From Acidobacteriota bacterium (GTDB taxonomy: Bacteria; Acidobacteriota; Terriglobia; Bryobacterales; Bryobacteraceae): a stretch of DNA of 41,769 nt. Positions 13,966 to 14,797 of this stretch are shown here, piece by piece. Location: NCBI GenBank assembly GCA_016215215.1, contig JACRKW010000074.1:1-41769 (forward strand). Direction: 5' to 3'. Both the position numbers and the translations under genes were made by a program. Under the pieces are notes generated by a model. That model did no database searches. It was given only the letters and a program-made list of their open reading frames with translations, and had not been told where the DNA came from. The stretch's first letter is position 1; every line of letters begins with the position of its first letter.

Positions 13966-14167
13966 TGTTCTGTCTCCTGTAGGGGCCGGGCCGCCTGGCG
14001 GCGGCGCGGCTCACGTACGCCTTATCGGAGAGCGCGGCGGAGGGTGAGAGAGAAATGCGCGGAGGAATGTGGTGTGGCCGGACCGGCGGCTCTGCTATGC
14101 TCAATCGCAAGTGCACAAGCGTGACCGCACCGGGCAGGACCGGGGCGGTTGAAGGAAGGGAGAGCCG

Positions 14168-14713
14168 ATGAGAATCATTTCATTTCTGGGAATGGCCGTG
14201 GGGACAGTCCTGACCGCCGGCATGCTGCCGGCACAGGCGCCCGCTCCGCCGAAGACACACCTCAAAGTTGGCGACGCGGCGCCGGATTTCAGCCTGCGGA
14301 CGACCGCGGGCAGTACGTTCAAGCTCTCCGAGCAGAGAGGGAAGACCGTGGTGGTGGCCTTCTTTCCGGCCGCCTTCACCGGTGGTTGAACGAAGGAACT
14401 CACGGCGTACCAGGCTGGTCTCGCCAAATTCGAAGAAGCGGGCGCGGTGGTCATCGGCATCAGCACGGATAACCTGCCGACGCTCAGTCATTGGTCGAAG
14501 GAAGAGTTGAAGCTGTCCTTCCCGCTGGCCTCCGATTTCAGCCAGCGCAAGGTGTCGGAAACGTACGGCGTTCTGAATAAGGATGCCGGATACGCCAGCC
14601 GGGCGACGTTCGTTGTGGACGCCGACGGCAGGATCCAGCACATCGAAGAGGGCAACTCGGCGGTGAACCCGGAGGGCGCGGCCACGGCTTGCGCGAGAGT
14701 GAGGAAGAAGTAG
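14168..14713 (+). CDS. Exported AhpC/TSA-BCP-type peroxiredoxin, candidate selenoprotein (Sec encoded by TGA 14387-14389)
   Basis: Signal peptide MRIISFLGMAVGTVLTAGMLPAQAPA; VGDAAPDFSLRTTAGSTFKLSEQRGKTVVVAFFPAAFTGG-[TGA]-TKELTAYQAGLAKFEEAGAVVIGISTDNLPT…FPLASDFSQRKVSETYGVLNKDAGYASRATFVVDADGRIQHIEEG. Both halves are in the same frame; the TGA is at the peroxidatic cysteine. Confidence 0.85.
14404..14425 (+). promoter_or_regulatory. Candidate bacterial SECIS hairpin
   Basis: GGCG-U-ACCA-[GGC]-UGGU-CU-CGCC. Upper stem ACC(A)/(U)GGU with G-containing apical loop, lower stem GGCG/CGCC, unpaired U on the 5' side; apical loop 23 nt after the UGA. Confidence 0.65.
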
Positions 14714-14797
14714 GCAGAAGGCAGAAGACAGAAGCCAGAAGTCAGAAGGCAGAAGTCAGAAGTCAGAAGACAGAAGTCAGAAGACGGAAGTCAGGAG
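14714..14797. repeat. Heptamer tandem array (NCAGAAG), about 12 units
   Basis: gcagaag gcagaag acagaag ccagaag tcagaag gcagaag tcagaag tcagaag acagaag tcagaag acggaag tcaggag; starts immediately after the TAG stop at 14711-14713. Confidence 0.95.

Follow-up and report, generated by a model that had tools for sequence, protein, structure and literature searches.

A putative exported selenocysteine peroxiredoxin encoded by an Acidobacteriota genome

The stretch of DNA analysed here (the window) comprises 41,769 nucleotides of an Acidobacteriota genome and carries a peroxiredoxin gene whose reading frame contains a single in-frame stop, a TGA at codon 74 (Table 1). Another 107 sense codons lie between this TGA and the terminal TAG. 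A first-pass annotation described the locus as two open reading frames in the same frame that are split by the TGA. The single frame stands, but the second 'ORF' beginning at 14447 merely reflects an internal start codon. When read through, the protein covers the entire Pfam AhpC-TSA profile (PF00578) with 126 bits (cut-off 26), which indicates that both half-ORFs form one domain. Specifically, the active site reads P67-A-A-F-T71-G-G-U74, which fits the PxxxTxxC motif with the TGA at the position of the peroxidatic Cys. This PxxxTxx-U alignment, together with an invariant Arg145 that we take to be the conserved active-site Arg of peroxiredoxins, bears out the earlier claim that the TGA falls exactly at the catalytic Cys of an AhpC/TSA-type protein. 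The gene is solitary, flanked by a divergent chemotaxis cluster and an enolase-superfamily gene, an order that is preserved in the closest relatives only. Given these neighbours and their limited conservation, we discarded the idea of an operon with a redox partner; no reductase lies next to the peroxiredoxin gene. Short imperfect repeats of cagaag-type units (e.g. aggcagaagacagaagtcagaag) are present immediately 3' of the stop codon at window positions 14717-14795.

Table 1. Features of the peroxiredoxin locus, in window coordinates.
Feature	Position	Strand	Evidence or remark
Purine-rich AAGGAAGGGAG, likely ribosome binding site ahead of ATG 14168	14152..14162	+	Read from the sequence
Predicted Sec peroxiredoxin, read-through CDS	14168..14713	+	181 aa, stop TAG; Pfam AhpC-TSA 1.1e-36
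Signal-peptide-like N-terminus (MRIISFLGMAVGTVLTAGMLPAQA)	14168..14239	+	Hydropathy 2.25 over 13 residues
TGA codon 74, peroxidatic position, predicted Sec	14387..14389	+	TGA, TGC or TGT only in 98 distinct homologues
SECIS hairpin	14404..14425	+	Fold; kept and covarying in TGA orthologues only
Arg145 codon	14600..14602	+	Invariant in 52 aligned homologues
Cys175 codon, candidate resolving Cys	14690..14692	+	Conserved in 73/74 family members; C-terminal helix 169-180 (model)

A confident structure model of the read-through protein (pLDDT 90.7) has Bcp4 of Sulfolobus and AhpE of mycobacteria as its nearest matches, and the sequence-profile neighbours are likewise Sulfolobus Bcp proteins and AhpE. 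Hydrophobic N-termini like that of the window protein are also present in most orthologues, with model confidence for the window protein being low in this region as expected. The peroxiredoxin is probably exported. Several orthologues (L038, L039 and L156-L160) have twin-arginine-like leaders (ERRSFFL, SRRAVLL) that suggest export by the Tat pathway, while the window protein has no such leader.

We compared codon 74 across homologues collected from bacterial and archaeal genomes and from 30 relatives of the source genome. Among 98 distinct homologues this codon is TGA in 54, TGC in 41 and TGT in 3, with no other codon observed. Chance is excluded as the TGA recurs at one position where only TGA or Cys codons occur, and this alternation with Cys codons favours a selenocysteine (Sec) reading. 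All eight same-genus relatives also carry the TGA (four assemblies are at 99-100% estimated completeness, in 2, 3, 40 and 80 contigs). One could still suppose a nonsense mutation or a sequencing error, where the gene would be a pseudogene or have a miscalled Cys codon and the match to the active site would be coincidental. TGA is indeed only one base removed from TGC and TGT, and L040, a Cys form, shares 66% identity with the window protein. However, the TGA with an intact flanking frame is found in 8/8 congeners and in all 54 TGA homologues, TAA and TAG never occur at this position, and a base error is very unlikely given that relatives sequenced independently show this TGA as well. The orthologues therefore show a conserved active-site TGA as opposed to scattered stops, and the earlier view that a mutation or base error is improbable holds up well; we give this explanation very little credence. 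A separate possibility is that the UGA is read as Trp or Cys, or is passed by unspecific stop readthrough, instead of being decoded as Sec. A Trp reading is disfavoured by the absence of TGG from codon 74 in the 98 homologues. Note that one relative (G026) harbours the gene in both its Cys and its TGA form (G026:C3 and G026:C14).

The region downstream of the UGA can fold into a hairpin, GGCG-U-ACCA(GGC)UGGU-CU-CGCC, with a lower stem GGCG/CGCC, a bulged U, a 4-bp upper stem ACCA/UGGU and a GGC loop (14413-14415), spaced 23 nt past the UGA and with a folding energy of -10.1 kcal/mol. Taken alone this hairpin does not exceed dinucleotide-shuffled sequence in stability (z -0.53), and no Rfam family matches it. 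Its significance comes from the comparison with relatives, as single-sequence folding is non-significant. Thus, the earlier argument that a downstream hairpin speaks against an error is upheld across orthologues but not as evidence from the single sequence. Specifically, pairing in the four-pair core stem reaches 92% with covariation in 39 TGA orthologues versus 42% with no covariation in 23 Cys orthologues, so that conservation with covariation is confined to TGA forms. RNAalifold also recovers the stem in the TGA set, with the Cys set giving no structure. The window hairpin agrees with the published SECIS model for bacteria (PMC13188914), whose limits on loop, spacing and energy are satisfied by 36/39 TGA orthologues versus 1/23 Cys orthologues.

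The hairpin also leaves a mark on codon choice. Using as a measure the fraction of sequence pairs sharing the same amino acid that have different codons, synonymous differences at +8/+9/+10 amount to 0.00/0.01/0.02 in TGA forms versus 0.39/0.71/0.63 in Cys forms. Furthermore, a switch of the Tyr codon from TAC to TAT is accompanied in 10/11 TGA cases by a change of the opposing GGT (Gly) codon to GAT or GAC (Asp) (Fisher p 1.7e-8, a descriptive value that treats related sequences as independent), a link that is absent in Cys forms (p 0.35). This indicates that the RNA pair is preserved even where this means replacing Gly with Asp. A hairpin conserved in TGA forms only is not expected from a nonsense mutation or sequencing error, and it would be needless if the UGA were read as Trp or Cys or simply read through. 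One Cys orthologue (L045 6214-6258) retains the complete SECIS hairpin sequence (GGATACCAGGCTGGTATTC) and looks like a recent Sec-to-Cys change.

In regards to the machinery for Sec insertion, the source genome encodes SelA (484.5 bits), SelB (348.9 bits) and SelD (351.9 bits), each above its curated cut-off. A tRNA-Sec was not found in the source assembly, which is a metagenome-assembled genome (MAG) of 392 contigs with an estimated completeness of 85%, nor was a selC observed beside selA, selB or selD. This absence lends something both to an error or nonsense codon and to non-Sec decoding of the UGA. However, a tRNA-Sec is present in 8/8 congeners (67.6-78.8 bits), so that the search for selC fails in the incomplete source assembly and succeeds in all of its same-genus relatives. 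Overall, 27/31 genomes searched have a tRNA-Sec match above the cut-off, with G018 being included just by a weak 50-bit hit, and the anticodon is TCA in the genomes checked. Most of the nearest congener's selC region has no match in the source assembly. The simplest reading of the missing tRNA-Sec is an assembly gap, which the 85% completeness explains but does not prove. The complete selA/selB/selD set and the tRNA-Sec of all congeners argue against a Trp or Cys reading or unspecific readthrough, which we regard as a very remote prospect.

Several weaker tRNA candidates were rejected. Five weak tRNA-Sec matches in the source genome are tRNA-Ser, tRNA-Leu and tRNA-Gly. The window segment 204-297 (minus strand) reaches 46.7 bits on the tRNA-Sec model (cut-off 47) and is identified by ARAGORN as tRNA-Ser(GCT). 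A pattern search for the tRNA-Sec anticodon plus T-arm gave 7 matches versus 4 in a reversed control, none of them tRNA-like.

The source genome has two further redox genes with an in-frame TGA and a similar hairpin, which adds to the case for Sec decoding. Its selD (L020 4453-5352; G000:C377:9452-10351) contains one (KAAG-U-ASKL) that is followed by a hairpin with a GGU loop. A second exported-looking thioredoxin-fold gene (L026; G000:C154:10062-10517) also contains an in-frame TGA (ADW-U-PWC) with a strong hairpin that has a GUG loop, and probably codes for another selenoprotein. Hairpins with three-base loops occur 20-23 nt past the TGA in the peroxiredoxin, selD and L026 genes, as counted from the printed folds. 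The WAxxUGC selenoprotein family scores below its cut-off in the source genome.

The conserved TGA, the TGA-specific hairpin, the presence of selA/selB/selD and the tRNA-Sec of congeners all support the first-pass proposal that this UGA is decoded as Sec. We consider it highly probable, from sequence comparisons, that the gene codes for a presumably exported peroxiredoxin of the AhpE/PrxQ type in which UGA codon 74 is decoded as Sec via the downstream in-frame SECIS. SelB and tRNA-Sec would decode UGA 74 at this element, and outside of the cytoplasm the Sec selenolate would then attack H2O2 or an organic hydroperoxide to form a selenenic acid. Cys175 would probably resolve the selenenic acid to give a Sec74-Cys175 selenenylsulfide, with an extracytoplasmic thioredoxin-like reductase as the presumed reductant of this bond.

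The proposed role of Cys175 derives from a second Cys that is located +98 to +107 from the catalytic residue in 73/74 family members, comprising Sec and Cys forms alike and including those of Myxococcota. This residue is usually the sole other Cys in the protein, and is at +101 in the window protein. As the closest structures are those of AhpE, which is described as a 1-Cys enzyme, the argument for a resolving Cys175 comes entirely from this conservation. On balance we favour resolution of Sec74 by Cys175 through a Sec-Cys selenenylsulfide cycle. The protein could instead be a real selenoperoxiredoxin that functions in a 1-Cys-like manner, where an external thiol would directly reduce the enzyme and Cys175 would have a structural or other role. 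Such a mechanism would be congruent with AhpE, titled a 1-Cys peroxiredoxin, being among the closest solved structures; the near-universal second Cys in both Sec and Cys forms argues against it, and we judge it possible but rather unlikely.

On a tree for which the catalytic residue was masked, parsimony gives at least 13 Sec/Cys changes, at least three of which are forced by well-supported branches. This tree is a quick build with many weak branches, so that the direction and exact number of changes are provisional. Two orthologues (L041 and L061) are from MAGs labelled Acidimicrobiia and Micropepsaceae and are nested among Acidobacteriota on the tree; these are likely mislabelled or contaminated bins, with transfer also being possible.

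What may be new is an exported, mainly acidobacterial branch that combines a Sec...Cys arrangement with repeated Sec/Cys exchange. We found no description of this branch in searches of the open-access literature. There is about an even chance that these proteins constitute an undescribed, mainly Acidobacteriota subfamily of exported AhpE-like selenoperoxidases with an extracytoplasmic Sec-Cys cycle and repeated Sec/Cys exchange. If true, this exchange supplies natural matched Sec/Cys pairs, and Sec forms together with Cys orthologues such as L040 would allow a test of what selenium buys an extracytoplasmic peroxidase. The family also provides a clean comparative case of a coding-region SECIS that constrains both synonymous and amino-acid choice. 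Because standard annotation would split the gene at its catalytic codon, this presumably extracytoplasmic antioxidant of Acidobacteriota is probably truncated in or missing from databases.

Regarding known systems, PRDX5-type atypical 2-Cys peroxiredoxins have a resolving Cys in a C-terminal helix about 104 residues past the peroxidatic Cys. This spacing is similar to the 101 residues observed here, a likeness that is an analogy of mechanism only, as the best sequence and fold matches listed do not include PRDX5. Peroxiredoxins with a TxxU motif are an established bacterial selenoprotein family that is catalogued in reviews (PMC13188914, PMC9312934), with PrxU of Eubacterium acidaminophilum as an example (Sohling et al., 2001, as cited in PMC13188914). 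Sec peroxiredoxins were already counted in 2006, at which time four selenoproteins in three families were given for Acidobacteria (PMC1794560). The window protein resembles this TxxU/PrxU family in its PF00578 fold, PxxxTxxU active site, peroxidatic UGA and coding-region SECIS. It departs from PrxU in its signal-peptide-like N-terminus and its C-terminal Cys at +101, and its score on the NCBIfam PrxU model (NF040737) is 77.6 bits, far below the 270-bit cut-off. Prx-SUH (NF045827) is likewise a Sec-containing peroxiredoxin-like family, on which the window protein scores 52.8 bits versus a cut-off of 298; thiol peroxidase Prx-SUH is listed with a CxxU motif and not TxxU (PMC13188914). The best PDB neighbour in both structure and sequence, alongside the Sulfolobus Bcp proteins, is AhpE of Mycobacterium tuberculosis (Rv2238c). 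AhpE proteins have a PxAF(T/S)xxC signature with an Ala-Phe dyad and a Val or Ile before the peroxidatic residue (PMC5302317). The P-x-A-F-T-x-x-U motif of the window protein contains this Ala-Phe dyad. However, it differs from AhpE in having Gly73 and not Val/Ile before the peroxidatic residue, a predicted Sec in place of Cys, a conserved second Cys and predicted export.
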